In this document: in pieces, positions 14,149 through 33,926 of the stretch | Layout of the letters: every line of letters begins with the position of its first letter | How positions within the stretch are numbered: the stretch's first letter is position 1 | Assembly: GCF_014284195.1 (NCBI RefSeq) | Contig: NZ_JACOGC010000001.1 | Location: forward strand, 930,001 to 994,000 | Reading direction: 5' to 3' | DNA length: 64,000 nucleotides | DNA from: Cognatundibacterium griseum | GTDB lineage: Bacteria; Pseudomonadota; Gammaproteobacteria; Burkholderiales; Burkholderiaceae_D | The notes under the pieces: model-generated | Seen by the model: only the letters and a program-made list of their open reading frames with translations | The model's database searches: none | Told to the model about the DNA's origin: nothing | Translations under genes and position numbers: made by a program

Positions 14149-14175
14149 CTTGTTTAATTTAATTGATGAGAGATT

Positions 14176-14778
14176 ATGGCGAAAATTATCGTCACCTTTA
14201 ATGGACTGATACAGCAGGAAGTCAGCATTAATAAATCACGGATCACTATTGGCCGGCGCTCGGGAAATGATATCGTGATTGATCACCTGACCGTGAGCGG
14301 CCAGCACGCTGCCATCGACACCACATCAAACGGATCGTTTGTACTGGATCTGGGAAGTACGAACGGCACTATGGTAAATAATCAGCCAGTCAAAAAGCAT
14401 TTATTGCAACATGACGATGTGATTGATATCGGTAAATATAAATTGCGATATCAGCAAGAAAAAAATATCCAGGTATCTGACGTTTCCGGCAATATTGTTC
14501 AAACTGGCTTATCTGCAGTTGCCACAATTCGGGTGGTTAATGGGCCGAATACCGGTAAAGAACTGGTGCTGTCCAAGCCTGTTACCACAATTGGTAATCC
14601 AGGTATTCAGGTTGTTGCAATCGCAAAACAGGCAGATCAGTATGTGATTAAACATGTTGAAGGCGCTGAACCACCGAAGGTGAATGGAACACCTGTTTCC
14701 GGTGCGCTCCAGATTTTGCGTCATGGCGACATGATTGACGTTGCCGGTACACACATGCAGATCACATTCAAGTCCTGA
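14176..14778 (+). CDS. FHA-domain protein with a second degenerate FHA-like half
   Basis: A 200-residue phosphothreonine-binding protein. The first FHA domain (about residues 20-95) has the canonical GRRSGNDIVI, the S-x-x-H of VSGQHAAI, and LGSTNGTMVNNQPV. The second half (about 115-200) repeats the fold outline, ending LRHGDMIDVAGTHMQITF, but its phosphate-binding signature is missing. GATGAGAGA gives a good ribosome-binding site. It lies between the phosphatase gene and the pilin cluster, so regulation of pili or of a separate pathway by Thr phosphorylation is possible but unproven. Confidence 0.88.
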   Translation: MAKIIVTFNGLIQQEVSINKSRITIGRRSGNDIVIDHLTVSGQHAAIDTTSNGSFVLDLGSTNGTMVNNQPVKKHLLQHDDVIDIGKYKLRYQQEKNIQVSDVSGNIVQTGLSAVATIRVVNGPNTGKELVLSKPVTTIGNPGIQVVAIAKQADQYVIKHVEGAEPPKVNGTPVSGALQILRHGDMIDVAGTHMQITFKS

Positions 14779-14803
14779 TCTTTTCACTCATCGAGACAAG
14801 TTG

Positions 14804-14867
14804 TGACAAAAAATGAATTTAACTGACAAAAAATGTCATTTTTAAGCAAAGTTTTCAATTTTTGTCT
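14804..14867 (+). promoter_or_regulatory. Candidate PilR-type enhancer boxes (TGTC/GACA repeats) upstream of first pilin
   Basis: TGACAAAAAATG occurs at 14804 and again at 14824, exactly 20 bp apart. The second copy runs into ATGTCATTTTT, and GACAAAAA recurs inverted at 14859-14867. They lie 35-100 bp before a sigma-54 promoter, where an activator such as PilR would bind. The TGTC core is as I recall it for Pseudomonas PilR; the assignment is inference. Confidence 0.5.
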
Positions 14868-14901
14868 TTTCTCTGGAGTGGTTTATGAGTTCATTGCTCT
14901 C

Positions 14902-14917
14902 TGGCACGCTGTTTGCT
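14902..14917 (+). promoter_or_regulatory. Sigma-54 promoter of first pilin gene
   Basis: TGGCAC-N5-TTGCT, a full match to the -24/-12 consensus with GG and GC correctly spaced. It predicts a start of transcription near 14928 and a leader of about 36 bases. Control of pilA by RpoN and PilSR is established in Pseudomonas. Confidence 0.9.
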
Positions 14918-14963
14918 CAGTTCAAAGTGGGTCATTTTTAAATTAATTCTCTGGAGTATTAAT

Positions 14964-15413
14964 ATGAAAGTAGCAAAGAAAGTACAACAAGGTTTTACCC
15001 TGATCGAATTGATGATCGTGGTGGCAATTATCGGTATTCTGGCTTCTGTTGCTTTGCCTGCATACAATGACTACACAACACGCGCTCAGGTTTCTGAAGT
15101 AGTTGAACTGATTGGTGGCCTGAAGGCACCAGTTGCCGAATATGGTTACCAGAAAAACGCATGGCCGACGGCATTTGTGGTCTCTACGGCCACTCCTGCT
15201 GCGACAGAGTTGACTGCTACATTGACAGGTAAGTATTCCACAGTCACTTCACCGATGACTGGCACCTTCCCTAACGGTACTATCACAGGAACGATGACAG
15301 CAGGTCAGGCGAATACTGGCACTATTACATTCATTACTTCTGACGGTGGCAATACCTGGTCTTGCACTGGCGGTACTATTGCCAATAAATATCGTCCAGT
15401 CGCTTGTAAGTAA
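14964..15413 (+). CDS. pilA: Type IV major pilin (copy 1)
   Basis: A 149-residue prepilin. The leader is [10 protein letters not shown], cut before the N-methylated Phe of [20 protein letters not shown], with the conserved Glu at mature position 5. The mature chain has 139 residues. Two C-terminal Cys (TWSC and PVACK) form the usual disulfide-bonded loop. The ATG at 14964 has CTGGAG upstream and follows a sigma-54 promoter; an upstream in-frame start would destroy the short leader. It differs from copy 2 at only four mature residues. The terminator after it suggests a single-gene transcript. Confidence 0.96.
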
Positions 15414-15430
15414 TCTGGGTTGATTGTAAG

Positions 15431-15462
15431 AAAAAAAGACACTCATTTGAGTGTCTTTTTTT
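15431..15462 (+). terminator. Intrinsic terminator after first pilin
   Basis: A-tract, GACACTCA, short loop, TGAGTGTC, then seven T. The A and T tracts are symmetric, so it could act in both directions. Confidence 0.93.
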
Positions 15463-15699
15463 ATTTTCCTGACAACATGACCAATATAGAAGCTGGGAAG
15501 AAATTATCGTCCCCGATGTGCCTATTTATCTTGATTTTGCAGCTTAGGTAAAGAATTGTCACAAATGATAAATTACGTTTCTTTTTTTCCGTACGGAAAA
15601 CTTGGAGCCATGTTTGATTGACGCTACTATCTTGATACTGGCAACAGATTTTTGAAACTAGATATTTGATGGCCTTAGGCATTTACTCAGGGGAATACA

Positions 15700-16152
15700 A
15701 TGAACGCAGCAAAAAAGAAAATGCAACAGGGTTTTACCCTGATTGAATTGATGATCGTGGTGGCAATTATCGGTATTCTGGCTTCTGTTGCTTTGCCTGC
15801 ATACAATGACTATACAACACGCTCTCAAGTCTCAGAGGTGATTGAACTGATCGGGGGTTTGAAGGCCCCGGTATCGGAGTATGGATATCAGAAAAATGCA
15901 TGGCCAACAGCTTTTGTCGTTTCCACTGCAACGCCAGCAGCAACAGAGTTGACAGCAACATTGACTGGTAAATATTCTACCGTCACTTCACCGATGACTG
16001 GCACTTTCCCAAACGGTACCATTACCGGAACGATGACAGCGGGCCAGGCGAATACTGGCACTATTACATTCATTACTTCTGACGGCGGTAATACATGGGA
16101 CTGCACCGGCGGTACTATTGCCAATAAATATCGCCCAGTTGCCTGTAAGTAA
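15700..16152 (+). CDS. Type IV pilin (copy 2, near-identical mature protein)
   Basis: A 150-residue prepilin with leader [11 protein letters not shown] and the same 139-residue mature length as copy 1. The mature proteins differ at four places only: A/S and V/I in the TTRxQVSEVxEL stretch, A/S before EYGYQKN, and S/D next to the first disulfide Cys. Many codons differ silently in the middle of the gene, while the 5' part and a block near the 3' end are almost identical in DNA. CAGGGGAA is the ribosome-binding site. No convincing sigma-54 promoter was found in the 237 bp after the copy 1 terminator, so its control differs or is hidden. Confidence 0.95.
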
Positions 16153-16215
16153 TTTTCATTCTTATAAAGCACTACTTTATTAGGTATTTTTTATTGCTTG
16201 ACAGATAGGTAAGGC

Positions 16216-16231
16216 AGGCTTGAAATTTGCT
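16216..16231 (+). promoter_or_regulatory. Candidate sigma-54 promoter of third pilin gene
   Basis: AGGCTT-N5-TTGCT keeps the invariant GG and GC at the correct 10-bp separation and all of the -12 element; two -24 positions deviate. It lies 41 bp before the third pilin ATG. A sigma-70-like TTGACA overlaps upstream at 16198, so either polymerase form is possible. Confidence 0.6.
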
Positions 16232-16271
16232 ACCCAGAAAAGAATAGTTTAAATCACTTCTGGGGGAAATA

Positions 16272-16748
16272 ATGAAATGCCATTTATTTGCAGTTCTGCA
16301 CCGCCGCAATCGAGATTTTCAACAAGGATTCACGCTGATTGAGTTGATGATTGTGGTGGCAATTATCGGTATTCTCGCTTCAATTGCCTTGCCTGCTTAC
16401 AATGATTATGCGACTCGCGCCCAAGTGACAGAGGTTATTGATTTGCTAGGAGGGATGAAGGTAACGGTTTCTGAATATGCTCATCAGAAAAATACCTGGC
16501 CAACGGCATTCGTTGCCCCGACATCCAATCCGGCACCAAGCGAGATCGTTGCAACCCTGCAAGGAAAATATGCAGCTGTCAGCTCTACGATGACTGGTAC
16601 TTATCCTAATGGGACGCTGACTGGAACGCTCACGGACGGGCAGGCAAATGGCTCCAATATCACGTTAGTAACAACTGATGGCGGTGACACCTGGAGTTGC
16701 ACAGGAGGAACGCTGGCAGCGAAATATCGTCCGGTGGCCTGTAAGTAG
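16272..16748 (+). CDS. Type IV pilin (copy 3, divergent, long leader)
   Basis: A 158-residue prepilin with an unusual 19-residue leader ([19 protein letters not shown]) before [20 protein letters not shown]. The mature part is again 139 residues and aligns without gaps to copies 1 and 2, but the C-terminal two-thirds has diverged ([31 protein letters not shown]). The two disulfide Cys and the ending KYRPVACK are kept. CTGGGGGAAA precedes the ATG. A leader of this length resembles minor or alternative pilins more than major ones; whether it is a switched major pilin or a minor one cannot be told here. Confidence 0.93.
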
Positions 16749-16819
16749 GACTTAACCATGAAGGTAAGGGAATTTGCCATATAAAGTGGGCGATAGTTTT
16801 TTCTTCTTATTTCTCATCT

Positions 16820-17587
16820 ATGTCAGAATTTCAATTTCGCATTAAAGCTGCGCTGATTCATTTACTGGTTTCTGCGCTGGTTGTTTCTTTGGTTGCCGGA
16901 CTGATATTGTTGCTCTGGTATCCTTGGCCTTATAGCAGAATGGCTGGTGGTCTCAATTTGCTGGTTCTGGTGGCTACGGTCGATCTGTTTCTGGGACCGA
17001 TGCTGACGCTGGTTATCTTTGATTCCCGAAAAACCCGCTCTGTTTTATTCAAAGATATTTTAGTGATTGGCTGCCTTCAATTGGCAGGGTTGCTATATGG
17101 GGCACATACTGTTTATCTGGCAAGACCCGTTGCGCTGGTGTTTGAAGGAAGCCGGTTTCGTGTTGTTTCGGCGGCTGGCGTGCAGGAAAATGAGTTGCCC
17201 CAGGCCTTACCGGAATTTCGCAGCCTGTCAATGATGGGGCCAAGATTAACCGGGACCCGTCCATTCAGGAATCAGCAGGAAAAAATGGAGGCCGCAGATA
17301 AAGCCATGGCAGGCGTGGACATTGGTTTGCGTCCGGTTTTCTGGCAAGACTATCGTCTATCTGTACCGCAGGTGCTGAGTGTCAGCAGGCCGGTTGAACT
17401 TCTTTACCAGAAATATCCGGCCGATCAGGGGCTGATTGACGAACGGATCAAAGCCACCGGGCATTCCAGGAGCCAGTTGAAATTTTTACCTTTGATTGCC
17501 AGAGAGGGGGGGGGCGACTGGCTGGTACTGATTGATGCGATCTCTGCACAACCAGTTGGTTTTATTGAAAAAGACGGATTTTTCTGA
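16820..17587 (+). CDS. TfpX/TfpZ-family type IV pilin accessory protein
   Basis: A 255-residue inner-membrane protein of the TfpX/TfpZ group, encoded next to pilins and known in Pseudomonas to help pilin assembly in an allele-specific way. Membrane helices lie at about residues 10-32, 40-65 and 75-95; a periplasmic domain rich in mixed sequence follows to the C-terminus. It starts 71 bp after the third pilin. The gene contains a run of nine G at 17506-17514, near the codons for REGGGDW about 25 residues from the end, where a slip would change the C-terminus. Confidence 0.85.
   Translation: MSEFQFRIKAALIHLLVSALVVSLVAGLILLLWYPWPYSRMAGGLNLLVLVATVDLFLGPMLTLVIFDSRKTRSVLFKDILVIGCLQLAGLLYGAHTVYLARPVALVFEGSRFRVVSAAGVQENELPQALPEFRSLSMMGPRLTGTRPFRNQQEKMEAADKAMAGVDIGLRPVFWQDYRLSVPQVLSVSRPVELLYQKYPADQGLIDERIKATGHSRSQLKFLPLIAREGGGDWLVLIDAISAQPVGFIEKDGFF
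17506..17514 (+). repeat. Run of nine G inside the TfpX/TfpZ-like gene
   Basis: Nine consecutive G bases in codons for Gly-Gly-Gly of the pilin accessory protein. Homopolymer runs of this length are prone to slipped-strand mispairing; the present length keeps the frame open to 17587. Confidence 0.9.
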
Positions 17588-17719
17588 AATTTTTCCAACT
17601 TCGTTAAATTAAACTACATTTTGTAGCCGCTTTATGTAATGTTGAATGAAAGCGCTGCTGTTGTTCGCTGGATGTGTAAAAGCGCATCAGTGCTCCTATC
17701 GCCGGAACCAATTTGTGTT

Positions 17720-17752
17720 GACGGAAAAATGAGAAAATACCTGATTTCCGTC
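17720..17752 (+). other. Inverted repeat just upstream of the pglL-like start
   Basis: GACGGAAA and TTTCCGTC are perfect 8-bp arms around 17 bases, ending 11 bp before the ATG at 17764. In RNA it could mask the start region; as DNA it could be an operator overlapping a TTGACG -35-like hexamer. Function unknown. Confidence 0.4.
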
Positions 17753-17763
17753 CAGTGACTTTC

Positions 17764-19527
17764 ATGTTATCTCCATTTTCTTTCCCCAAAAAACAAGAGC
17801 AAAACGATGTCTGGGCTTTATTCTGGCTCGGATTTGGTATTGCCGGGGCGTATCTGATCCCGGTTCATCAGCATCCTTTCCGGACTTTCTATAATGAGCT
17901 GGCGATTTTTTTTGGGGTGACACTTTCGCTGTTGTTCAGTGCAGAACGTCCGAACAGCATTCAGTCTGCACACTACTCCAGCCTGACCTGGATGCTGCCC
18001 GCACCTGTGTTGCTGCCTGTTGTATTTATCCTGACTATCTGTGCGCAATGGATTTTCCAGGCTCGTGATGATGCGTACGATCTGTTTTTCCCTCTGATGT
18101 ATTTGTTGTATGCGGTACTGGTTTTGATCCTGGGCGCCACGCTGGCAAACAATGCAGTTAAGCGTGAATCTTTGAGTCGGACTTTGGCAATCGTCTTTTT
18201 GATTTCTGGTTGGTTGTCGGTTTTGATGCAGGTCGCCCAATTACTGGGGATGGATTTAACCCCGGTGGTGATGTATATGCCTGCTGGTTCATTTTTGCAA
18301 AGACCATACGCGAATGTGGCGCAGCCGAACCAGCTGGCTTTATTGCTCTGCTTTTCTCTGGCGGCGACAGCCTGGCTGTTTCAACAAGGAAAGTTGCGAA
18401 TTCCGGTAGCCATATGTTCGGTGGTTCTTCTGTTGACTGGATTAGTGCTGACGCAATCCAGGATTGGCTGGATTATTATTCCTCTATTTGTTGCCATCCT
18501 CGCCCGGAGCGCTCCTGCACGTCAGTCAATCGGCTGGCAAGCGGCGGCATGGTTTGGTTTGGTGTATGCCGCCAGTGTTTTTCTGTTGCCCAAAATTGCC
18601 GGGCTGGCCGGCGTGCATGGCGGCTCTGCAGCGGATCATATTGGAGGACGCTCAGAAAGAATGGGGTTATGGCGGCAGGCATGGGATATCGCAGCAAATC
18701 ATCCCTGGGCCGGGGCCGGATGGTTTCGATTTGGTCCGGAACAGGTGCATATCGCTGCAGATTTTCCTTCCACAACTTATGCAGAGCACGCGCACAATAT
18801 TGTGCTGAACTTAGCAGCAGAAATCGGATGGTTGTTGACTGGCTTGATGGTAGCAGGCTTGCTTTGGTGGTTTTACCAGGTCTGTATCAAGCCCAAAAAA
18901 GACTTATCCATGCAGTTTGCCGGTATGTGCCTGGTTGCCGCATGTGTGCACAGTCTGGTGGAGTTCCCGTTATGGTATGGGTATGTACTGTTTCCGGTTT
19001 TGATAATGGCAGGCATGCTCCATCAGCAGAGATGGCCTGTGGCGGCGACAGTCCGGTTGCGTAAGGACGTTGCGGTCGCAGTTACTGCAATTGCGCTTTT
19101 CTGCATGATGGGAATCACCTGGGATTATCAACGCGTGGTACGCGGCTTTAATGTCCTGCGCTGGGAGCAGACAGGTAATCAGGTCGATCTGAAGCAGCTG
19201 GAGCAACCGCGGCTGACATTATTTCCTCAGTTTTTTGCCTATTTTCATCTGATGAAAATCGCGCCGGCGGAAGGGATGTCTGCCGAGGATATCGCATTTG
19301 TCGAACACTGGACGCCGCGTTTCGGGTTTGTCCATATCCTGAATAAGCTGGCTGAAGTGTCTGTATTGAATGGCAAGCGGGAGCAGGCTGTACGTGCGAT
19401 GCAGACTTTGCAGCGCCTGCACCCTGATCTCTATCCTGAGTATTTCGATTACTGGAAAGCGAAAGGTGCATCGGATGCGCGATATCAGCAGGTTTTCCTC
19501 AGCATGCCGCGACGTGATGCACCATAA
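17764..19527 (+). CDS. PglL/TfpW-type O-oligosaccharyltransferase (Wzy_C domain), probable pilin glycosylation ligase
   Basis: A 587-residue polytopic membrane protein with about ten or more hydrophobic segments. The large periplasmic loop around residues 295-350 contains GGRSERMGLWRQAW and EHAHNIVLNLAAEIGW, the Wzy/WaaL/PglL signature with its essential His. The C-terminal 150 residues after the last helix (VVRGFNVLRWEQTG onward) match the Wzy_C_2 layout of pilin ligases. It would transfer a lipid-linked glycan to Ser/Thr of exported pilin. Position after pilins and TfpX/Z supports pilin as substrate. Start: first ATG (17764); a GTG at 17755 is possible. No ribosome-binding site is evident. 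Confidence 0.85.
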   Translation: MLSPFSFPKKQEQNDVWALFWLGFGIAGAYLIPVHQHPFRTFYNELAIFFGVTLSLLFSAERPNSIQSAHYSSLTWMLPAPVLLPVVFILTICAQWIFQARDDAYDLFFPLMYLLYAVLVLILGATLANNAVKRESLSRTLAIVFLISGWLSVLMQVAQLLGMDLTPVVMYMPAGSFLQRPYANVAQPNQLALLLCFSLAATAWLFQQGKLRIPVAICSVVLLLTGLVLTQSRIGWIIIPLFVAILARSAPARQSIGWQAAAWFGLVYAASVFLLPKIAGLAGVHGGSAADHIGGRSERMGLWRQAWDIAANHPWAGAGWFRFGPEQVHIAADFPSTTYAEHAHNIVLNLAAEIGWLLTGLMVAGLLWWFYQVCIKPKKDLSMQFAGMCLVAACVHSLVEFPLWYGYVLFPVLIMAGMLHQQRWPVAATVRLRKDVAVAVTAIALFCMMGITWDYQRVVRGFNVLRWEQTGNQVDLKQLEQPRLTLFPQFFAYFHLMKIAPAEGMSAEDIAFVEHWTPRFGFVHILNKLAEVSVLNGKREQAVRAMQTLQRLHPDLYPEYFDYWKAKGASDARYQQVFLSMPRRDAP

Positions 19528-21723: not shown

Positions 21724-22023
21724 ATGGTGTTCAATTGGTTTAATGCAAAAGAGGAAAAAATATTTGGATCTTCCCTGGCGGATTTTTATCTGGAAAGACA
21801 CAAGACAGAAGCTATCAATAAAAATAATAAATATGTGGAGAGAAAACAGAAGGAGCTGTTTGTGAAGATGCTCCAGCAATTGGAGAGTTTTAAAGCAAAA
21901 CACCAATCGAATGTTTATAAAAAAGCGCAATTAGGTAATGCATTTAAGTGGCGCTTGATGGAGTCAGGATTGTCAACAGAACATGTGGATCAATTAACGC
22001 GCTGGCTCACACGTCAGCTATAA
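21724..22023 (+). CDS. Small basic protein of unknown function (99 residues)
   Basis: Not recognised. A strong ribosome-binding site (AGGAGG) precedes the start. The product is Lys-rich and soluble, with a predicted helical middle part (KNNKYVERKQKELFVKMLQQ) and a C-terminal segment WRLMESGLSTEHVDQLTRWL that could be a helix pair. No signal peptide or Cys. It lies 32 bp before the GT41 glycosyltransferase gene in the same direction and shares its AT-rich base composition, so it may be the first gene of that operon. Confidence 0.7.
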   Translation: MVFNWFNAKEEKIFGSSLADFYLERHKTEAINKNNKYVERKQKELFVKMLQQLESFKAKHQSNVYKKAQLGNAFKWRLMESGLSTEHVDQLTRWLTRQL

Positions 22024-22055
22024 GTTCAATCAAACATTATCGACAAAGATCAGGT

Positions 22056-24074
22056 ATGACAATACTTAACCGGATTCAAGCCTTATTCAGCGTGACACCA
22101 AAATCCTCAAAGGAAATAACACCAATCAGTCAAAGCGAGCAGGCTGTGCAATTGATTGATCGGGGTAATCAATTGGAAGAAAACGGTCAGATGAACGAGG
22201 CGCTGAGACTGTATGAGAAGGCCATCGAAATGGCTCCGGCTTTAGCACGTGCCTACCTCAATAAGGGAAATGTTTTATTGCAGATGGAAAAAATTCCGGA
22301 TGCAGTCACCATGTATCGTAAAGCAGTTGAATTGAATCACGATTATGCCGCGGCGCATTTTAATTTGGGGAACGCACAAATTATTCAGAACAGTCCCGAC
22401 GCTGCGCTTGATTCTTATGAAAAGGCAATTCAGTTAAAACCTGATTTTGTTGATGCTTACGTGGCCAGAGGTAACGTACTGGGAGATATGAAGCGTTTTC
22501 AAGATGCGATTGACAGTTATCAGCAAGCATTAAAACTGGCGCCAGCTTACGCGCAGGTACATGGCAATCTGGCTGCCACATTGAAAGACGCCGGTGATCT
22601 GATTTCCGCGATGAAGCACTATCAGGCAGCAATTGAGACTGATGCCGATTATTTGCGCGCATATGGCAATCTTGCCGATGTATACAGGGAACTCGGCCGT
22701 ATTGATGATGCAGTGGAAATTTGTCGCACCGCATTGCGCAAACAACCTGACATGGTTCCAACATATACACAATTATTATTTTGCCTGAGTCATAGCAACC
22801 GTCTCACTGCACAGCAGTTATTTGAGGAGCATAAACGGTTTGGCGATCAGTTTGAAGCGCCATTCCGTGCTATATGGCCAGTACACGATAATGTGAAAGA
22901 TCCACAAAAGACACTCAGGATCGGGCTGGTTTCCGCTGATTTACGTGCGCATGCCGTTGCTTTTTTTCTGGAACCCGTCTTGGCTGCTTTGCAGCACTCT
23001 CAATCGCTGTCTTTATTCGTCTATTACAATCATGAAGCAGAAGATGAGATCACTCAGCGGATTAAAGCAACCATTCCACGTTGGCAGGTGATCGTTGGAT
23101 TGAACGATCATCAGGTTGCACAGAAGATTCTGGCAGATAAAATCGACATACTGATTGATCTGTCCGGCCATACCGGTAAACACCGGTTACTGACTTTTGC
23201 CCGTAAGCCCGCGCCAATACAAGTCAGCTGGGTTGGCTATCCGGGAACCACCGGATTGCAGGCGATGGATTACTATCTGGCAGGACGGCATTTCTTACCG
23301 GCTTTTGAATTGGACGATCAATTCACTGAGAAAATTGCCCGATTACCCGTGACCGTTCCTTTCCTGCCTATTTCTGATTCACCCGATGTCAATGCTTTGC
23401 CGGCGCTGGAAAATGGCTATATAACGTTTGGCAGTTTTAACAGGATTGATAAAATCGGCAGGGAAGTTGTTGCGTTATGGGCGCAGTTATTGCGGGAAAT
23501 ACCGACGGCGAAAATGTTGATTGCAGGTTTGCCTGCCAATGGCGAATATGAACATTTATGGTTCTGGTTTGAGCAGGAAGGCATACCAAAAACGCGGCTT
23601 GAATTTCACAATCGCAGCAATATGCATACCTATCTTGCGTTGCACCACAAAGTGGATGTTTGCCTTGACACCTTCCCATATACCGGCGGCACGACCACTA
23701 ACCATGCGTTATGGATGGGTGTTCCCACCCTGACTCTGACCGGAACAACCCCGGCAGGACGGCAGTCTTCCGCAAATTTGTCTGACGTCAACCTGATCCA
23801 GGAATTTGGAGCAAAAAATCATGCTGACTTCGTTGCGCTGGGAAAGCAGGTTGCTTCTGATTTGGAGAGCTTAAGCAGCATAAGACAAACATTACGTAGC
23901 CGGTTTTTAAATGCGCCTTTTTCAAAGACGGATGTTTTTGCGACGAATCTTGAACACATGTTGCGTGCGATATGGCAACGATGGTGCCAGGGATTACCGC
24001 CTGCTGCAATAGAAGTAACGACCAATAATCAGGTTATTTTTCCGGTTCCCGGTGATGTGGGTATCTATGAGTAA
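22056..24074 (+). CDS. TPR-GT41 (SPINDLY/OGT-like) protein glycosyltransferase
   Basis: A 672-residue cytoplasmic glycosyltransferase. Residues about 35-240 are tandem tetratricopeptide repeats, for example ARAYLNKGNVLLQMEKIPDA and AAAHFNLGNAQIIQNSPDAA. The C-terminal half is GT41: LRIGLVSADLRAHAVAFFLE with the conserved His, PIQVSWVGYPGTTGLQAMDY, YITFGSFNRIDKIGREVVAL and DVCLDTFPYTGGTTTNHALW with the nucleotide-sugar site. Family members attach GlcNAc, fucose or other sugars to Ser/Thr of proteins. The donor here is unknown. The ATG 22056 is preceded by CAGG. Its end overlaps the aminotransferase gene by 8 bp. Confidence 0.92.
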   Translation: MTILNRIQALFSVTPKSSKEITPISQSEQAVQLIDRGNQLEENGQMNEALRLYEKAIEMAPALARAYLNKGNVLLQMEKIPDAVTMYRKAVELNHDYAAAHFNLGNAQIIQNSPDAALDSYEKAIQLKPDFVDAYVARGNVLGDMKRFQDAIDSYQQALKLAPAYAQVHGNLAATLKDAGDLISAMKHYQAAIETDADYLRAYGNLADVYRELGRIDDAVEICRTALRKQPDMVPTYTQLLFCLSHSNRLTAQQLFEEHKRFGDQFEAPFRAIWPVHDNVKDPQKTLRIGLVSADLRAHAVAFFLEPVLAALQHSQSLSLFVYYNHEAEDEITQRIKATIPRWQVIVGLNDHQVAQKILADKIDILIDLSGHTGKHRLLTFARKPAPIQVSWVGYPGTTGLQAMDYYLAGRHFLPAFELDDQFTEKIARLPVTVPFLPISDSPDVNALPALENGYITFGSFNRIDKIGREVVALWAQLLREIPTAKMLIAGLPANGEYEHLWFWFEQEGIPKTRLEFHNRSNMHTYLALHHKVDVCLDTFPYTGGTTTNHALWMGVPTLTLTGTTPAGRQSSANLSDVNLIQEFGAKNHADFVALGKQVASDLESLSSIRQTLRSRFLNAPFSKTDVFATNLEHMLRAIWQRWCQGLPPAAIEVTTNNQVIFPVPGDVGIYE

Positions 24075-25179
24075 AGAAAATATTTTTGTTACCAAACCAA
24101 CTTTGCCGCCACTGAATGACCTGATCCCATATTTGGAAAAAATATGGGAGACCAGAGTTCTGACGAATGGTGGTGAGTTTCATCAGAAATTTGAAGCAGC
24201 GTTATGTGATTATTTTGGCGTACATCATATTTGCCTGTTTACGAATGCCACTATCGCATTAGTGACTGCTTTGCAGGCGCTTCGTATTACAGGTGAAGTC
24301 ATCACAACACCTTATTCTTTTGTGGCGACATCACATTCTTTGCTTTGGAATGGCATTAAACCGGTTTTTGTAGATATTGATCCACACTCATTGAATCTTG
24401 ATCCTGCGAGGATTGAATCAGCGATTACGCCTCACACGACAGCGATTATGCCGGTTCATTGTTATGGACATCCTTGTGACGTCAATGGTATTCAGAGGAT
24501 TGCTGATAATTACAATCTGAAAATCATCTATGATGCGGCTCATGCCTTTGGCGTGCAGGATGCCGGCGGCAGTATCTTGCGGTACGGTGATTTATCCGTT
24601 TTGAGCTTTCATGCAACAAAAGTTTTTAATACGTTTGAAGGTGGGGCGATTATTTGTCCTGATGAGAAAACGAAGGTCAGGATCGATCAGCTGAAAAATT
24701 TTGGGCATGTGGGAGAGACCACCGTTGTTGCGCCAGGAATCAATGGGAAAATGAGCGAATTCAATGCAGCACTTGGCTTGTTGCAGTTACAGCATATTGA
24801 TTCTGCTTTAGCATGCCGTCAGAAAATTGATGAAGCCTATCGCCTGAAATTAGCCGGTATTCCGGGTATTTCTTGTATTCAGAATTCCGGGGAGTGTGTG
24901 GCTAACTATGCCTATTTTCCGATATTAGTACATCAGGAATATTCCATGACCAGGGATGCTCTGTATGCATTAATGAAAGAAAAGGGGATTCATCCACGTC
25001 GTTATTTTTACCCTTTGATTTCACAATTTCCTATGTATCGCGGACTAGCTTCCGCACATCCGGACAATTTGCCTGTGGCGCTTGAAATTTCCCAGAAAAT
25101 TCTATGCCTGCCAATTTATCCCGGTCTTGAGATGTCGGTGGTGGATGAGATTTGTCAGCTGATTGCACATCCCTGCTGA
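24067..25179 (+). CDS. DegT/DnrJ/EryC1/StrS-family PLP-dependent sugar aminotransferase
   Basis: A 370-residue enzyme that would put an amino group on a keto-sugar nucleotide. The PLP-binding Lys is K185 in LSFHATKVFNTFEGGA. Other family signs are the N-terminal TNATIALVTALQAL, the Asp of IYDAAHAFG that holds the pyridine nitrogen, and the C-terminal HPRRYFYPLISQFPMY. The HATKVFNTFEGGA form is typical of the VioA/FdtB subgroup that makes 3- or 4-amino-dideoxyhexoses. ATG 24067 overlaps the previous stop by 8 bases; in-frame GTG 24052 and ATG 24055 lie further inside the GT41 gene. Acetylation of its product by the GNAT encoded downstream is an inference. Confidence 0.92.
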   Translation: MSKENIFVTKPTLPPLNDLIPYLEKIWETRVLTNGGEFHQKFEAALCDYFGVHHICLFTNATIALVTALQALRITGEVITTPYSFVATSHSLLWNGIKPVFVDIDPHSLNLDPARIESAITPHTTAIMPVHCYGHPCDVNGIQRIADNYNLKIIYDAAHAFGVQDAGGSILRYGDLSVLSFHATKVFNTFEGGAIICPDEKTKVRIDQLKNFGHVGETTVVAPGINGKMSEFNAALGLLQLQHIDSALACRQKIDEAYRLKLAGIPGISCIQNSGECVANYAYFPILVHQEYSMTRDALYALMKEKGIHPRRYFYPLISQFPMYRGLASAHPDNLPVALEISQKILCLPIYPGLEMSVVDEICQLIAHPC

Positions 25180-25211
25180 AATGCTGAAACCATTCTGATC
25201 AGGGATAGCGC

Positions 25212-25910
25212 GTGATAGTCTCCATTATGCAGCCTTATTTTTTGCCATACATCGGTTATTTCCAACTGATTAAGGCTGCCGATATATTTGTTATTTACGA
25301 TCACATCAAATATACCAAGAAGGGCTGGATTAACCGCAATCGGCTGCTGCTGAATGGACATGATGCATTTTTTTCTCTTCCTTTGAAAAAATCTTCGGAT
25401 ACGCTGGATGTTGTCGAGAAAGAATTGGCGAGTGACTATGAACCTGAGAAATTACTTCGGCAATTTGCCGGGGCTTATGCGGGCGCTCCTTTTTTTGATG
25501 AAATCTTTCCGTTATTAACTGAAATACTGATGTGTCAGGAACGGAATTTATTCCATTACATTTACCATTCTTTGCAGTTAGTTTGCCGGTATTTAGATAT
25601 TCAGACTGACATCCGTCTCTCATCGGAATTACCGTTTAATCAGGAGCTCAAAGGACAAGATAAGGTGATTGCCATCTGTCAGGTGCTGAATGCGGATAGA
25701 TACATGAATGCCATCGGCGGCACCGCTCTCTATGACCGGCAGGTTTTCAGAGAAAATAAGTTGGAGCTTCAGTTTTTGCAGTCTTCTCCTGTTGAATACC
25801 AGCAGTTTTCAACACCGTTTGTGCCTTGGCTTTCGATTATTGATGTTCTGATGTTTAACCCGCTTTCCCGTGTTCAGCAGTTGGTTTCTGAGCACTACAC
25901 AATCATTTAA
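25212..25910 (+). CDS. WbqC-family protein
   Basis: A 232-residue protein matching the WbqC-like family, found in O-antigen and amino-sugar clusters, with uncertain chemistry. The N-terminus IVSIMQPYFLPYIGYFQLIK and the following DDHxKYxKKGWxNRN-like stretch (YDHIKYTKKGWINRNRLLLN) are diagnostic. Further blocks include the C-terminal FVPWLSIIDVLMFNP. Translation starts at GTG 25212, 32 bp after the aminotransferase gene, with AGGGAT upstream; no ATG occurs before the conserved start. Its partnership with a DegT aminotransferase is common and suggests modification of the amino group. Confidence 0.85.
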   Translation: MIVSIMQPYFLPYIGYFQLIKAADIFVIYDHIKYTKKGWINRNRLLLNGHDAFFSLPLKKSSDTLDVVEKELASDYEPEKLLRQFAGAYAGAPFFDEIFPLLTEILMCQERNLFHYIYHSLQLVCRYLDIQTDIRLSSELPFNQELKGQDKVIAICQVLNADRYMNAIGGTALYDRQVFRENKLELQFLQSSPVEYQQFSTPFVPWLSIIDVLMFNPLSRVQQLVSEHYTII

Positions 25911-25913
25911 GCT

Positions 25914-26876
25914 ATGTTCCACTGGAAAAAATTAGGGCAGATATTTGTACCCCAAACTATGCATGGTCCTGAATGGATGGCTGAATTTGCGCAGGCACCG
26001 GCAACATTGATGATGGATGATGTGGTGCGGGTTTATTTTTCATGTCGCCCCAAGCCCGATGCCGATGGGAATTATGTCAGTTATTCAGCGTATGTTGATT
26101 TGGATCGGAAAGATCTGTTTAAGATCAGGTCTGTTGCGACGAAGCCAATTCTGAGTTTGGGAGGGCTGGGGGAATTTGATGAGTTTGGCACATATCCCGT
26201 ATCCGTGATTCGCCATGATCAAAAGGTTCGTGCCTATTACGCCGGTTGGACGCGTTGTGAGTCTGTGCCATTCAATGTTGCAATTGGTGTTGCAGAAAGT
26301 GATGATGATGGGAGAACGTTTGCAAAATTAGGACAAGGGCCGGTATTGTCCTGTTCTCCCTCAGAACCTTTTATTTTGAGCGGACCGAAAATACGTTATT
26401 TCAATGGAACCTGGTATTTATTTTATATTGCCGGTCTCAAATGGAAGATTGTCGATGGACGCCCGGAGCCGGTTTATAAAATCAGAATGGCAGAATCCTC
26501 AGATGGTATTTCATGGGTGAAGTGGAATAAAAATCTGATCAGTGACCGTATTGAGGAAGATGAGGCGCAGGCCAGTCCCGATGTATTTTATGCGAATGGG
26601 CTTTACCATATGTTTTTTTGCTACCGATACAGTGAGGGCTACCGGAGTAGCCAGAAAGGCTATCGTATCGGCTACGCCTATAGCCACAATTTGAAGGACT
26701 GGACACGAGATGACAACCGTGCCGGTATCGACGTGTCTGCATTGGGCTGGGATGCTGAAATGATCAGCTATCCGCATGTATTTGAACTGGATGGACTGAC
26801 TTATCTTTTGTATCTTGGAAATCAGGTCGGACGATTTGGATTTGGAATTGCTGTGCTGGATGGGACATTGGAATAA
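25914..26876 (+). CDS. Five-bladed beta-propeller protein, glycosidase-like (paralogue 1)
   Basis: A 320-residue soluble protein without signal peptide. Repeated blades with W/Y-rich strands and Asp turns recall the GH43/GH32/GH130 superfamily: DDVVRVYFSCRP, GVAESDDDGRTFAKLG, IRYFNGTWYLFYIAG, MAESSDGISWVKW, YANGLYHMFFCYR and SYPHVFELDGLTYLLYLGN. The catalytic residues could not be assigned, so activity on glycans, phosphorolysis or mere binding are all open. It starts 3 bp after the WbqC gene stop and is followed 3 bp later by a paralogue of the same length. Confidence 0.75.
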   Translation: MFHWKKLGQIFVPQTMHGPEWMAEFAQAPATLMMDDVVRVYFSCRPKPDADGNYVSYSAYVDLDRKDLFKIRSVATKPILSLGGLGEFDEFGTYPVSVIRHDQKVRAYYAGWTRCESVPFNVAIGVAESDDDGRTFAKLGQGPVLSCSPSEPFILSGPKIRYFNGTWYLFYIAGLKWKIVDGRPEPVYKIRMAESSDGISWVKWNKNLISDRIEEDEAQASPDVFYANGLYHMFFCYRYSEGYRSSQKGYRIGYAYSHNLKDWTRDDNRAGIDVSALGWDAEMISYPHVFELDGLTYLLYLGNQVGRFGFGIAVLDGTLE

Positions 26877-26879
26877 ATC

Positions 26880-27827
26880 ATGCGATGGCGTAAATTAGGA
26901 AAAATTTTTGATCCCTCTGATTTTCCGGGACACCGTTTGCAATTTGCACAATCGCCGCAAACCTTGTTGTTTGATGATTTCATCCGTATTTATTTTTCTA
27001 CCAGATCAACGGATGGGAATGGAAAATTCCGAAGTCATATCGCATTCGTTGATATGACCAGAAATTTACAGCAGATACGCCGCGTCTCAGAACATACGGT
27101 CATGCCATTGGGAGCATTGGGATGTTTTGATGAACATGGTATTTTTCCTATCAATGTAGTTCGTCATAATGGACTGATATATGGTTACACGTGTGGCTGG
27201 AGCCGTCGTGTTTCTGTATCTGTTGAAACGGCTATCGGGCTGGCAATGAGCCGCGATGAGGGTGAAACATTTGAGCGAATCGGTGATGGCCCTATTCTTT
27301 CCGCCTCTTTGCGCGAACCCTGTCTGGTCGGTGACGGCTTTGTGAAGGTGATCGGTAATCGTTTCCACATGTGGTATATCTTTGGTACAGGATGGAAAAA
27401 GTACTCTCCGGATGCTCCGCCAGACAGGACCTATAAAATAGGTCACGCTGTTTCCGATAATGGAATTGACTGGATCAAAGAGGATGGGCATCAGATTATT
27501 CCTGACCGGTTAGGATGGGATGAAAGCCAGGCTTTGCCATCGGTGATTCAAATGGGAGACCGTTACCATATGTTTTTTTGTTACCGGGAATCGTTTGATT
27601 TCCGTAGTAATGCGACGCGTGGTTACCGGATCGGCCATGCCTGGTCAGATGATCTCTGTCACTGGAGCCGGGATGACGCCAGTCCCGAACTGATTGGCAC
27701 GCCCGGGGCATGGGATAGCGACATGCAGTGCTATCCACATGTATTCGAATGCGATGGAAATATCTATCTGCTTTATAACGGTAATGAGTTTGGCCGTTTC
27801 GGATTTGGTTTGGCTGTACTGGAATGA
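26880..27827 (+). CDS. Five-bladed beta-propeller protein, glycosidase-like (paralogue 2)
   Basis: A 315-residue relative of the preceding protein, sharing the order of blades: WRKLGKIFDPSDFPG at the start, DDFIRIYFSTRS, GCFDEHGIFPINVVRHNG, MSRDEGETFERIGDGP, SDNGIDWIKEDG, GDRYHMFFCYRESFDFRS and the common ending NEFGRFGFGLAVLE (NQVGRFGFGIAVLD in the first). It keeps the GFDEFGTYP/GCFDEHGIFP acidic motif of the first copy. No signal peptide. Two adjacent diverged copies suggest a heterodimer or two related substrates. Its stop overlaps the GNAT gene by 4 bases. Confidence 0.75.
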   Translation: MRWRKLGKIFDPSDFPGHRLQFAQSPQTLLFDDFIRIYFSTRSTDGNGKFRSHIAFVDMTRNLQQIRRVSEHTVMPLGALGCFDEHGIFPINVVRHNGLIYGYTCGWSRRVSVSVETAIGLAMSRDEGETFERIGDGPILSASLREPCLVGDGFVKVIGNRFHMWYIFGTGWKKYSPDAPPDRTYKIGHAVSDNGIDWIKEDGHQIIPDRLGWDESQALPSVIQMGDRYHMFFCYRESFDFRSNATRGYRIGHAWSDDLCHWSRDDASPELIGTPGAWDSDMQCYPHVFECDGNIYLLYNGNEFGRFGFGLAVLE

Positions 27828-28288
27828 CTGCTCATCATTTTATCTTCAGGCAAAATACGGCAACACAGCAGGATGTGCTGCAGCACTTTACGCAATGCGA
27901 CCGGGAATTTTTTACGCAATTACAACAACGCGTGGATATCGGATCGTATATAGAAAAAATTTTGTCTGCTGCTGAGCGGTTTGAAATCTGGGATGGCGCT
28001 GAATTAAAAGGATTGCTGGCGGCATATTGCAATTGTGAACAGCGCCAGAATGTATTTATTACGAATCTCAGCGTCACGCTCGACTCGCAGCGAAAGGGGC
28101 TGGCGTCGCAACTGCTGCGTCGATGCATACTTCATGCGGAGAAAGAAGCTTATGTCGGAATTCAACTACAGGTTAATGTGACGAATAATGCCGCATACCA
28201 GTGCTATATTCGGCACGGGTTCCGGGAAACACATATCAGCGAGCATGACCGAACGATGTATTTATCTCTGGGAGTCAGTATTGTCTAG
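27824..28288 (+). CDS. GNAT-family N-acetyltransferase
   Basis: A 154-residue acetyltransferase. The acetyl-CoA loop is in VTLDSQRKGLASQLLRRCIL (Q/R-x-x-G-x-A form) near residues 85-105, and the closing strand is NAAYQCYIRHGFRETHISEH. The start overlaps the propeller gene stop (ATGA). In this context it may acetylate the amino sugar made by the DegT enzyme, although GNATs act on many amines. Its last 8 bases overlap the methyltransferase start. Confidence 0.88.
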   Translation: MTAHHFIFRQNTATQQDVLQHFTQCDREFFTQLQQRVDIGSYIEKILSAAERFEIWDGAELKGLLAAYCNCEQRQNVFITNLSVTLDSQRKGLASQLLRRCILHAEKEAYVGIQLQVNVTNNAAYQCYIRHGFRETHISEHDRTMYLSLGVSIV

Positions 28289-29039
28289 TATTGAACGTAA
28301 CTATGATGTTGAAATCAAAGATGTGGCAGATCATCAATACGCTTACAACTTTGATTTTGATGTGATCCATCCCTATATGATCCAGTCATTTCGCCCATTT
28401 CTGCAGGCTGGACGGACGCTGGAGCTAGGCAGCTTCAAAGGCGATTTGACAAAGCGATTGATGGCGCATTGTGACAACATTACCTGTGTTGAGGCATCGG
28501 CAGAAGCTATGGGCGTGGCGCAGTCAAGCTTACCTCAACAGATTCAATTTGTTCATACTACTTTTGAACATGCGCAACTGCCTCAGAAATATGAAAATAT
28601 CGTCATGACGCATGTATTGGAACATCTGGATGATCCCGTGCATATATTGAGACGGATCAATGATGAATGGTTGAGCGAATATGGCCGGTTTTTTTTAGTC
28701 TGTCCGAATGCCAATGCGCCATCACGGCAGATTGCGGTAAAGATGGGGCTGATCTCACATAATACGGCAGTGACGCCTGCTGAATTGGCGCATGGGCACC
28801 GCCGTACTTATACCCTGGATACTCTGGAACGTGATGCCGCCGCCGCCGGGCTCAAAGTGATGCATCGGTCAGGTATTTTTTTTAAAGCGATGGCCAATTT
28901 TCAATGGGATCGCTTACTCAAGACCGACATTATTTCCAGGGAATATCTGGATGGCTGTTATGCGCTGGGGCAGCAATATCCTGATTTGTGTTCCAGTATT
29001 TTCCTGCTATGCGAACGCGGAGCGCATCCCGCCGGATAA
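28281..29039 (+). CDS. Class I SAM-dependent methyltransferase
   Basis: A 252-residue methyltransferase. Motif I is LELGSFKGDLTKRL near residues 45-58, followed by the acidic CVEAS and MTHVLEHLDDPVHILRRIND, as in the Methyltransf_11/23 group. The start is placed at TTG 28281 because GGAG lies six bases upstream and it overlaps the GNAT stop (TTGTCTAG). In-frame ATGs at 28188 and 28245 would overlap the GNAT gene by 44-101 bases and add residues unlike the family. It is the last gene of the block and would O- or N-methylate the finished sugar or protein. Confidence 0.85.
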   Translation: MSSIERNYDVEIKDVADHQYAYNFDFDVIHPYMIQSFRPFLQAGRTLELGSFKGDLTKRLMAHCDNITCVEASAEAMGVAQSSLPQQIQFVHTTFEHAQLPQKYENIVMTHVLEHLDDPVHILRRINDEWLSEYGRFFLVCPNANAPSRQIAVKMGLISHNTAVTPAELAHGHRRTYTLDTLERDAAAAGLKVMHRSGIFFKAMANFQWDRLLKTDIISREYLDGCYALGQQYPDLCSSIFLLCERGAHPAG

Positions 29040-32732: not shown

Positions 32733-33926
32733 ATGCAATTCAACCGACTCAGTGACCTGATCGCAGGTAAGCAGCTCCAGGGAAAACGTGTTTTTATCCG
32801 TGCCGATCTGAATGTTCCTCAGGACGACGCCGGAAACATTACCGAAGATACCCGCATCCGTGCGTCGGTACCGGCCATTCAGCAGGCCTTGCAGGCTGGC
32901 GCTGCGGTCATGGTGACCTCGCATCTTGGCCGGCCGACAGAAGGGGAATTCAAGCCGGAAGATACCCTGGCCCCGGTAGCTGTGCGCCTGTCGGAATTGC
33001 TGGGTGTTCCGGTGACACTGAAGCAGAACTGGGTGGATGGCGTGGAGGTTGCTCCGGGACAGGTCGTGTTGCTGGAAAACTGCCGCGTCAACAAGGGCGA
33101 AAAGAAAAACGATGATGCGCTGGCGCAGAAAATGGCCGCTTTGTGCGACGTGTATGTCAATGATGCATTCGGCACCGCACACCGTGCTGAGGCGACGACG
33201 CATGGCATCGCCAAATTCGCGGCGATCGCCTGCGCCGGACCATTGTTGTCCGCTGAACTGGATGCGCTGGGCAAAGCGCTGGGGCAGCCTGCACGCCCGC
33301 TGGTGGCGATTGTGGCTGGCTCCAAAGTGTCCAGCAAGCTCACTATCCTGAAGTCGCTGGCCGATAAAGTCGATAACCTGATCGTCGGCGGCGGCATTGC
33401 GAACACTTTTATGCTGGCTTCCGGTCTGAAGATTGGCAAATCGCTGGCAGAAGCCGATCTGGTGGACGAAGCGAAGGCGATTATTGATCTCATGGCGCAG
33501 CGCGGCGCCTCGGTGCCGATCCCGGTGGACGTGGTGTGCGCAAAAGAATTTTCTGCCACGGCTGCAGCTACCGTGAAGTCCGTGGCGGATGTGGCCGATG
33601 ACGACATGATCCTCGATATTGGTCCGGTAACGGCGGCGAAACTGGCGGAACAGATCAAACAGTCGGGTACGATCGTCTGGAACGGCCCGGTCGGCGTGTT
33701 TGAATTCGACCAGTTCGGCAATGGCACCAAAGTGCTGGCACAGGCGATTGCCGACTCCTCCGGTTTTTCGATTGCCGGTGGCGGTGATACGCTGGCGGCG
33801 ATTGCCAAATACCACATTGGCGATCAGGTTGGTTATATCTCGACCGGCGGCGGCGCCTTCCTTGAATTCCTCGAAGGGAAGGTATTGCCGGCAGTCGATA
33901 TTCTGTTGCAACGCGCTGCGCGCTGA
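32733..33926 (+). CDS. pgk: Phosphoglycerate kinase
   Basis: Glycolytic ATP-forming enzyme, 397 residues, normal length. The N-terminal signature is [20 protein letters not shown], followed by [10 protein letters not shown] near residue 67, [20 protein letters not shown] near 145, and the C-terminal nucleotide loop [12 protein letters not shown] near 350. It heads a group of glycolytic genes (pgk, pyk, fba) on one strand. In the 254 bp upstream, after the azlD terminator, no clear promoter pair was recognised. Confidence 0.97.

Follow-up and report, generated by a model that had tools for sequence, protein, structure and literature searches.

An operon beside a type IV pilin locus in Cognatundibacterium griseum joins a TPR-GT41 glycosyltransferase to an exchangeable sugar cassette

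Gene content of the operon and the surrounding locus

The DNA analysed was a 64,000-nucleotide stretch of the Cognatundibacterium griseum genome (hereafter 'the window'; RefSeq assembly GCF_014284195.1, contig NZ_JACOGC010000001.1, positions 930001-994000; contig C10 of genome G000), in which an eight-gene operon on the forward strand joins a small protein and a TPR-GT41 protein glycosyltransferase to a series of sugar genes. The first gene (21724..22023), directly 5' of the GT41 gene, encodes a 99-residue protein of no known family that is conserved by profile (hereafter 'the small protein'). It is followed by genes for the TPR-GT41 enzyme (22056..24074; 672 residues from the likely ATG; Pfam PF13844 plus TPR), a DegT/DesI-like sugar aminotransferase (24067..25179; PF01041), a WbqC-family protein presumed to act in amino-sugar tailoring (25212..25910; PF08889), two paralogous predicted beta-propellers, of which propeller A (25914..26876) appears glycosidase-like from weak GH43/GH32 matches below cut-offs and propeller B (26880..27827) has a partial profile match to the GH130 chain 7fip, a GNAT N-acyltransferase (27824..28288; PF00583, 37.4 bits), and an S-adenosylmethionine methyltransferase with a putative role in sugar O-methylation (28245 or 28281..29039, the longest open reading frame (ORF) beginning at 28188; PF13489, 53.7 bits). 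An initial annotation of this DNA had described eight same-strand genes with named families; all of the ORFs were recovered, with the families assigned by Pfam (E-values of 6.3e-44 for Glyco_transf_41, 1.6e-99 for DegT, 7.2e-68 for WbqC, 3.5e-9 for GNAT and 2.5e-14 for the methyltransferase).

Likely start codons were placed at ATG 22056 rather than GTG 21948 for the GT41 gene, at 24067 for the aminotransferase gene and at 28245 or 28281 for the methyltransferase gene, and with these the junctions measured, in order, 32, -8, 32, 3, 3, -4 and -44 or -8 bp. The five tight junctions described initially (overlaps or 3 bp) held with the corrected starts, and the 76-bp overlap between the longest ORFs of the small protein and GT41 was probably an artefact. 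The single terminator-like match on the forward strand lay within the gene for propeller B, none being found between operon genes; promoter-like and terminator-like matches were rarer than in shuffled sequence, and an Rfam search of the window gave no match. That the eight genes form a real operon is certain. The block had a G+C content of 45.1% (51.9% for the window), one of 227 sliding windows of block length (start 21501) being as low, and the initial counts of 24 and 34 G+C at 24361-24420 and 33301-33360 were both exact. The operon is composed of three separable parts: the small protein, the TPR-GT41 enzyme, and a sugar cassette made up of DegT, WbqC, propellers A and B, GNAT and the methyltransferase.

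Upstream, on the same strand, lie three type IV pilin genes recognised from their N-terminal sequence (14913-15413, 15700-16152 and 16272-16748), the products of which are the proposed acceptors; the second matched TIGR02532 (38.8 bits, cut-off 16.3), and the other two share the same N-terminal sequence. They are followed on the forward strand by genes for a TfpX/TfpZ-family pilin accessory protein (16820..17587; NCBIfam NF041437, 204.5 bits, cut-off 200) and a PglL-type O-oligosaccharyltransferase (17755..19527; Wzy_C 64.9 and Wzy_C_2 65.5 bits, both over cut-offs; PglL_A 23.4 bits, cut-off 25), so that a membrane O-oligosaccharyltransferase (O-OTase) is present at the pilin genes as a gene separate from the operon. 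The region holding the pilin and PglL genes (13342-19527; G+C 46.4%) was almost as AT-rich as the operon block. PglL and the operon are 2196 bp apart, in agreement with an initial estimate of about 2.2 kb. Also upstream of the operon are moaC (named by sequence), on the opposite strand, and a gene for a BepA-like protease (NF052400, 334 bits, below the cut-off of 570), 56 bp after which the operon starts.

The TPR-GT41 enzyme and the predicted sugar donor

The GT41 domain scored 150.6 bits against PF13844 (curated cut-off 25) and was accompanied by six TPR_1 stretches. SPINDLY was its best solved relative (E 1.8e-108), bearing out the initial description of a SPINDLY/OGT-like transferase; in the alignment with SPINDLY chain 7y4i the Lys of FNRIDKI / FNNLAKI and the His of RAHAV were kept, both being active-site residues with roles established in work on OGT and SPINDLY. 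GT41 enzymes adopt the GT-B fold and are protein glycosyltransferases, the TPR superhelices of which bind protein substrates. The window's genome encodes exactly two GT41 proteins, one in the operon and one at a flagellin locus. The latter (L133:2907-12558, G000:C15) adjoins flagellin-FliD-FliS and has its own sugar genes (C-methyltransferase, rhamnosyl-type O-methyltransferase and PhyH by Pfam, CDP-glucose genes by eye), indicating two TPR-GT41 systems with different donors in one genome. Elsewhere, three tandem GT41 genes were observed in each of L030:2-6762 and L122:12188-18983.

The DegT protein (334 bits against PF01041) had chain 2po3 as its best solved match (E 1.7e-63), which is listed as a 4-dehydrase and which we take to be DesI; its score against the NCBIfam DesI model (TIGR04427) was 288 bits, below the equivalog cut-off of 650. 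An RmlB gene is present at another site in the genome (504 bits, cut-off 365), and the aminotransferase may thus make a dTDP-4-amino-4,6-dideoxyhexose, the donor structure proposed here being deduced from DegT with 2po3 as nearest solved chain, RmlB, GNAT and the methyltransferase. WbqC (229 bits against PF08889; predicted model with a pLDDT of 94.2) matched no solved structure by sequence at E<=1, and no relevant paper on it was found among open-licence papers; presumably, as has been suggested, it adds an acyl or aminoacyl group. The earlier description of twin glycosidase-like propellers stood as regards paralogy (45% identity) and was weakened as regards family, since matches to GH43, GH32 and GH130 were all below curated cut-offs (propeller B 18.0 bits against GH130, cut-off 26, and 31.3 of 450 against beta-1,2-mannobiose phosphorylase). 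Similarity of propeller B to GH130 chain 7fip was distant and partial (profile E 1.7e-9). The propellers need not be hydrolases, as GT108 is, in the excerpted text of PMC8950772, a family of GH130-fold five-bladed propellers with glycosyltransferase activity.

The closest named locus was that of U. oligocarboniphilum (propeller B 92% identical). In a related form of the cassette the GNAT gene is gone, and genes for an acyl carrier protein, an AMP-ligase, an SDR and a NeuD-like hexapeptide transferase lie nearby instead, which supports an acylated amino sugar. In five genomes the genes for the small protein, GT41 and DegT are followed by KASIII, KASIII, SDR, NeuD-like and Rieske genes, which replace WbqC, the propellers, GNAT and the methyltransferase (called in G158 by Pfam, in G147, G175 and G178 by BLAST to G158, and in G146 by gene sizes plus SDR/NeuD matches). 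This retention of small-GT41-DegT with swapped downstream genes supports the earlier proposal that the operon makes its own donor. The alternative KASIII/SDR/NeuD-like/Rieske cassette was seen at the same site in L136:11234-19597, L137, L175, L176 and L177.

Distribution of the cassette

When one genome per species (84,980 species) was scanned with a propeller-B profile, 317 relatives were obtained; the 80 best were retained, and gene presence in these loci was scored by best BLAST label. As contig ends truncate several of the loci examined, the absences given are lower bounds. Propeller A was found in 78 of the 80 loci, propeller B in 77, WbqC in 74, DegT in 72, the methyltransferase in 70 and GNAT in 60. 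Same-strand neighbour pairs were A-B in 65 loci, WbqC-A in 61, B-GNAT in 57, DegT-WbqC in 53, GNAT-methyltransferase in 51 and GT41-DegT in 14, the last count missing L044, where the pair is also adjacent (a matter of the start chosen for DegT). Lack of co-conservation in relatives had been named as grounds for rejecting the initial interpretation, which on these counts was not refuted. GT41 was detected by profile somewhere in 29 of the 80 fetched loci, two of them weakly, and in 51 there was none in the fetched stretch, many of the 80 loci being cut by contig ends. Where the GT41-DegT pair was lacking, the commonest extra neighbours were GT2 glycosyltransferases, with a flippase-type protein in a few loci. 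Three distant cousins (L036, L039 and L041) retained WbqC, one propeller and DegT; L036 and L039 also carried GT2 and hexapeptide transferase genes, L041 a PhyH-family gene and L039 an EamA gene.

The 51 loci without GT41 mark the cassette as a portable donor module; its DegT-WbqC-A-B set forms a portable sugar unit that has GT41 among its users. That an exchangeable cassette has been joined to a TPR-GT41 enzyme is well supported. The eight genes as an indivisible system, and with it the initial view of a single pathway, were ruled out by the same 51 loci, so that of the overall interpretation co-conservation and the operon's own donor were supported, and indivisibility and the lack of any known parallel (see below) were not.

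These loci also bear on the role of PglL. The cassette could feed a lipid-linked glycan that PglL moves to pilin, with GT41 adding a sugar to that glycan or having a minor part; PglL and TfpZ share the operon's locus, and the cassette loci without GT41 often contain GT2 and sometimes flippase-type genes. However, neither an initiating transferase nor a flippase is encoded by the eight operon genes, no PglL match was found near GT41 in L084, L206, L266, L264 (cut by a contig end) or L267, and characterised GT41 enzymes modify proteins. We consider this route distinctly unlikely.

The small protein and its partner enzymes

The small protein, on which the initial annotation was silent, is the best indicator of the operon's purpose. 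It reached no Pfam cut-off (weak Vta1, 19.8 of 26.8 bits). Its profile matched 26 places in 23 of the 294 genomes of the family, and a reversed-sequence control gave no match at E<=10 in 14,685 ORFs. Twenty-five of the places were examined (a 40-residue fragment, G151:C11, was left out), and in 18 of these a TPR enzyme adjoins or is fused to the small protein (12 GT41, 5 GT9-like and 1 sulfotransferase). GT41 as the sole kind of partner was rejected, Pfam showing GT9-like or sulfotransferase heads; TPR-driven BLAST matches had initially suggested GT41 in L179, L181, L182, L186, L187 and L190. Three of the eight GT9-like C-termini exceeded the 22-bit cut-off (first protein of L181, 24.1; L182, 29.9; L187, 24.0). 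In L181:8866-15414 the small protein gene precedes three consecutive genes for TPR proteins with GT9-like C-termini, beside a pilin gene. A single ORF of 659 residues at L190:8351-10330 combines the small protein with TPR repeats and a Sulfotransfer_3 domain; pilB-, pilC- and prepilin-peptidase-like genes lie some 2 kb away.

Thirteen of the 25 places are at type IV pilus loci. Pilin genes were present at the sites in G000, G085, G158, G146, G154, G147, G175, G178, G179, G148, G197 and G065, the last without a recognised TPR enzyme, and in G010:C18 the small protein gene lies by pilB-, pilC- and prepilin-peptidase-like genes (T2SSE plus MshEN and peptidase A24 over cut-offs, PilC/GspF below). 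Its placement within pilin loci varies: after BepA in seven genomes, in the TfpZ-PglL gap (G085), right after PglL (G179 and G148), and between MoaC and a pilin gene (G197). Apparent orphan small genes with no recognised TPR enzyme were seen at L183:8429-8728, L184:9126-9491 and L185:8712-9011, each downstream of a large gene whose product by eye resembles a TonB-dependent receptor.

Pilin and flagellar linkage of GT41 genes

GT41-DegT sets often lay in flagellar loci of other genera (L052 with fliE, flagellin and fliD; L053 and L055 with fliE and fliF; L058 with flagellin and fliD; L107 with flagellin), and the same was seen in two congeners (L142 and L143, with flagellin and fliD). Outside Undibacterium, most such sets for which a filament locus was recognised were flagellar, an arrangement in keeping with FlmG. 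Flagellar names were mostly assigned via BLAST or profile matches to genes named from sequence; in L031, L033, L034 and L035 the Pfam flagellin profile matched the same stretches as the flagellar labels. In a first test, 56 non-duplicate GT41 ORFs in the fetched loci (L029, L134, L145, L146 and L174 being dropped as duplicates) were divided by whether a small protein gene lay within 600 bp. The small protein marked the pilin-linked kind of GT41: pilin, PglL or TfpZ genes were present within 8 kb of 10 of the 14 GT41 genes with the small protein and of none of the 42 without; flagellar genes were near 0 of the 14 and 19 of the 42 (Fisher p 2.8e-8, for a set not randomly drawn and with kinship ignored). 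The labels are partly by design, as the set had been fetched for the cassette or the small protein, except L133 (flagellin) and L136 and L137 (BepA); the places in L136 and L137 were also found independently by the small protein profile search. In a tree of 51 GT41 domains (domains below 330 residues left out), eight of the ten pilin-linked rows formed one clade (100/97) near flagellar rows, L084 joined a flagellar row (97/73), and L178 stood elsewhere on a long branch, so that the pilin label changed at least three times on supported branches. Because these eight are a single Undibacterium clade, the p value overstates the evidence.

The nesting of this clade among flagellar GT41s speaks for another reading, in which the operon glycosylates flagellin in trans and its position beside pilin genes is an accident of insertion; the same cassette occurs in flagellar loci of other genera, and the genome does have flagellin. 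But the flagellin locus owns a TPR-GT41 and sugar genes, none of the 14 small-linked GT41s is near flagellar genes, and pilin linkage turns up repeatedly, at several positions and in further families. Flagellin as the target is therefore unlikely, if still to be taken seriously.

Sampling was extended to the class, where 64 of 321 genomes had GT41 and the best locus was fetched for 55 of the 63 other genomes (8 without a place); one of these loci (L229) contained secretion-type pseudopilin genes. Five second loci were chosen by hand, two of which had pilin and a small protein homologue (L264, 25.5 bits; L266, E 0.0019, profile-profile P 9.8e-5, probability only 58%). These two are examples and not a test, because the small protein of the L264 genome was known before the choice and that of L266 was recognised after its neighbourhood had been seen; a Fisher p of 5.6e-4 computed over 60 loci of the class sample was withdrawn, as both pilin-plus-small loci had been hand-added. 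In L264:2-8998 (G628:C90) the small protein and TPR-GT41 genes lie in a pilin-like gene cluster that by eye resembles an MSHA operon, NCBIfam supporting a pilin-type N-terminus in one of three genes examined. Two further pilin-linked loci came from other lineages: L206 (G446, another family; labels by Pfam except the small protein) has the small protein, two TPR proteins and a pilin, then divergent TPR-GT41, GT2, DegT, FdtA and GNAT genes, and L084 (a Nitrosomonadales metagenome-assembled genome) has a pilin and overlapping small protein and GT41 genes, followed by the same DegT-WbqC-propeller cassette.

The small protein profile, widened by L206, L264 and L266, matched 5 of 369 class genomes, one of which, G640 (same family as G426, the genome of L266), was outside the profile. 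A written prediction for G640, of pilin and a TPR modifying enzyme within about 5 kb, held: four tandem pilins, a fifth pilin-like gene, the small protein and a TPR-GT41 are on the same strand, with the small protein (E 1.2e-15) 41 bp past the last pilin and the TPR-GT41 (E 6e-140) starting at its last base, and no match to PglL, TfpZ, flagellin or FliD was found at the locus. A phylum sample of 393 genomes gave three small protein places including the window's, the two new ones being viewed with 1.5 kb on each side. In G1045 a pilin (Pfam Pilin plus N_methyl), the small protein and GT41 lie on the same strand, with no TPR at 1e-5 in the part seen. In G856 (L269:1498-3293, another family of the order) the small protein and TPR-GT41 lie by MoaC and an M48 peptidase, as in the window, with no pilin in the 1.5 kb viewed. 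Altogether, GT41 adjoins the small protein in all three loci outside the profile, and a pilin is directly upstream in two.

The arrangement in G856 would suit an island gained by horizontal transfer at a hotspot of insertion and functionally unlinked to pili, as would the low G+C of the operon, the empty sites in two congeners and the restriction of propeller-B profile matches to 8 of 43 genus genomes. Such an island is very improbable, however, given that the small protein and GT41 recur at varied positions in pilin loci and, in other families, alongside pilin clusters that are unrelated, and that the prediction for G640 held.

Proposed function of the operon

From these gene neighbourhoods, pilin as the target of the small protein and TPR-GT41 is the best reading, at about even odds, and the operon may be a module that serves specifically to glycosylate type IV pilins, in the cytoplasm and independently of lipid (probability about 0.5). 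Acceptor, donor structure, activity and the role of the small protein are all inferred from sequence. In the proposed scheme, DegT (together with the RmlB encoded at another site), WbqC, the propellers, GNAT and the methyltransferase would produce a nucleotide-linked, acylated and methylated 4-amino-4,6-dideoxyhexose, which the GT41 domain would transfer to Ser/Thr of the acceptor; the TPR superhelix and the small protein would select prepilin, or nascent membrane pilin, ahead of export, in the way that FlmG uses its TPR part to pick out flagellin. With donor cassettes swapped between species, the tag would vary and the small-TPR-GT41-DegT core would stay constant. The finding of the same locus without the operon in G032 and G063 is counted in favour of a pilin module.

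Several observations weigh against it. Six of the 25 small protein places have no recognised partner enzyme, to which L188 can be added, where the adjacent protein matches GT9 weakly and has no recognised TPR, and 12 of the 25 are away from pilus genes within the fetched stretches. Eight of the ten pilin-linked GT41s belong to one clade, and the 55 best-per-genome class loci had no small protein, no pilin by profile and 10 flagellar linkages, so that a pilin locus is a rare setting for GT41. PglL and the operon are separated in the window by BepA and by MoaC on the opposite strand, and PglL alone could be the pilin glycosyltransferase here. There is also a problem of topology, since the enzyme is cytoplasmic and the pilin exported. 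The Ser+Thr content of the pilins points neither way, at 0.24-0.27 in the window against 0.17-0.18 and 0.26 in two empty-site relatives.

The topology problem would be avoided if the module glycosylated a cytoplasmic partner of the pilus machinery, such as the small protein or a pilus ATPase, and so regulated pili rather than decorating pilin. GT41 is a cytoplasmic type of enzyme and the small protein is co-encoded with it, and near a pilB-like gene elsewhere the small protein forms a fusion with a TPR-sulfotransferase. Yet multi-gene donor cassettes that are exchanged between species would be more in keeping with a surface tag than with a regulatory mark, and we regard this option as quite improbable. 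For pilin as the acceptor, a broader and more tentative proposal, which we rate somewhat short of even, is that the small protein and its TPR enzymes form a cytoplasmic pilin-modifying family, in which an adaptor-like small protein is combined with interchangeable heads (GT41, GT9-like or sulfotransferase) and exchangeable donor cassettes, which has been placed repeatedly at pilin loci, and the main branch of which arose from flagellin-type TPR-GT41 systems.

Relation to known glycosylation systems

SPINDLY and OGT, eukaryotic enzymes that act on intracellular proteins with common donors, have the same TPR plus GT41 architecture, and the operon differs by its own donor genes. The vio genes of Pseudomonas syringae reportedly include aminotransferase, acylation and methylation steps. 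In the excerpted text of PMC3927599, the P. syringae flagellin island comprises vioA, vioB, vioT, vioR and vioM for modified viosamine; its target is flagellin, and WbqC and twin propellers are not among the genes named there. FlmG of Caulobacter, as described in part of PMC7591256, binds flagellin through its TPR N-terminus and glycosylates it in the cytoplasm through its GT-B C-terminus. The initial statement that no system with this set of genes had been described overlooked this FlmG type of flagellin glycosylation in the cytoplasm, which comes closest among known mechanisms. A Caulobacter genome scored above the GT41 cut-off, a match not equated with FlmG. As judged from its genes alone, the operon would resemble FlmG in its TPR N-terminus (which in FlmG binds the filament subunit), GT-B C-terminus, soluble donor and modification before export (PMC7591256, in part). 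It differs from FlmG in lying at a pilin locus, in the extra small partner, in the occurrence of several cassettes at one site and in its donor genes, since no NeuB-type synthase was found in a search confined to the eight genes. Flagellar linkage, which characterises the FlmG type, was not found for the operon, which is at the pilin-TfpZ-PglL locus, the other GT41 being at the flagellin locus. Because its location and donor genes fall outside the FlmG definition, the operon was not filed as FlmG, though it may work like it.

The O-OTases TfpO, TfpM and PglS are listed, in the excerpted texts of PMC12645811 and PMC11841053, as closely linked to the pilin gene. PglL, TfpO, TfpM and PglS modify pilins, as proposed here for the operon, but are periplasmic, lipid-dependent O-OTases according to those texts; TfpW is of the GT-C type, and the enzyme of the operon is a GT41.

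Implications for pilin glycosylation

A 2025 review presents pilin glycosylation, in the part available, as periplasmic and lipid-dependent, the lipid-independent cytoplasmic examples being flagella systems and glycosyltransferase toxins (PMC12645811). Cytoplasmic attachment thus appears to have been described for flagella, with no description for pili found in the open-licence literature. If the operon does act on pilins, it would represent a third route of pilin decoration beside the periplasmic O-OTases and TfpW; pilin modification would have to be sought in the cytoplasm too, and the manner in which a modified pilin is exported would become a question. The constant small-GT41-DegT core with its varied cassettes would also offer a natural series for studying acceptor and donor choice in TPR-GT41 enzymes. 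Pilin glycosylation lets bacteria evade phages (PMC11841053, in part), and the variation of the predicted tag among close relatives would fit pressure from phages that use the pilus.

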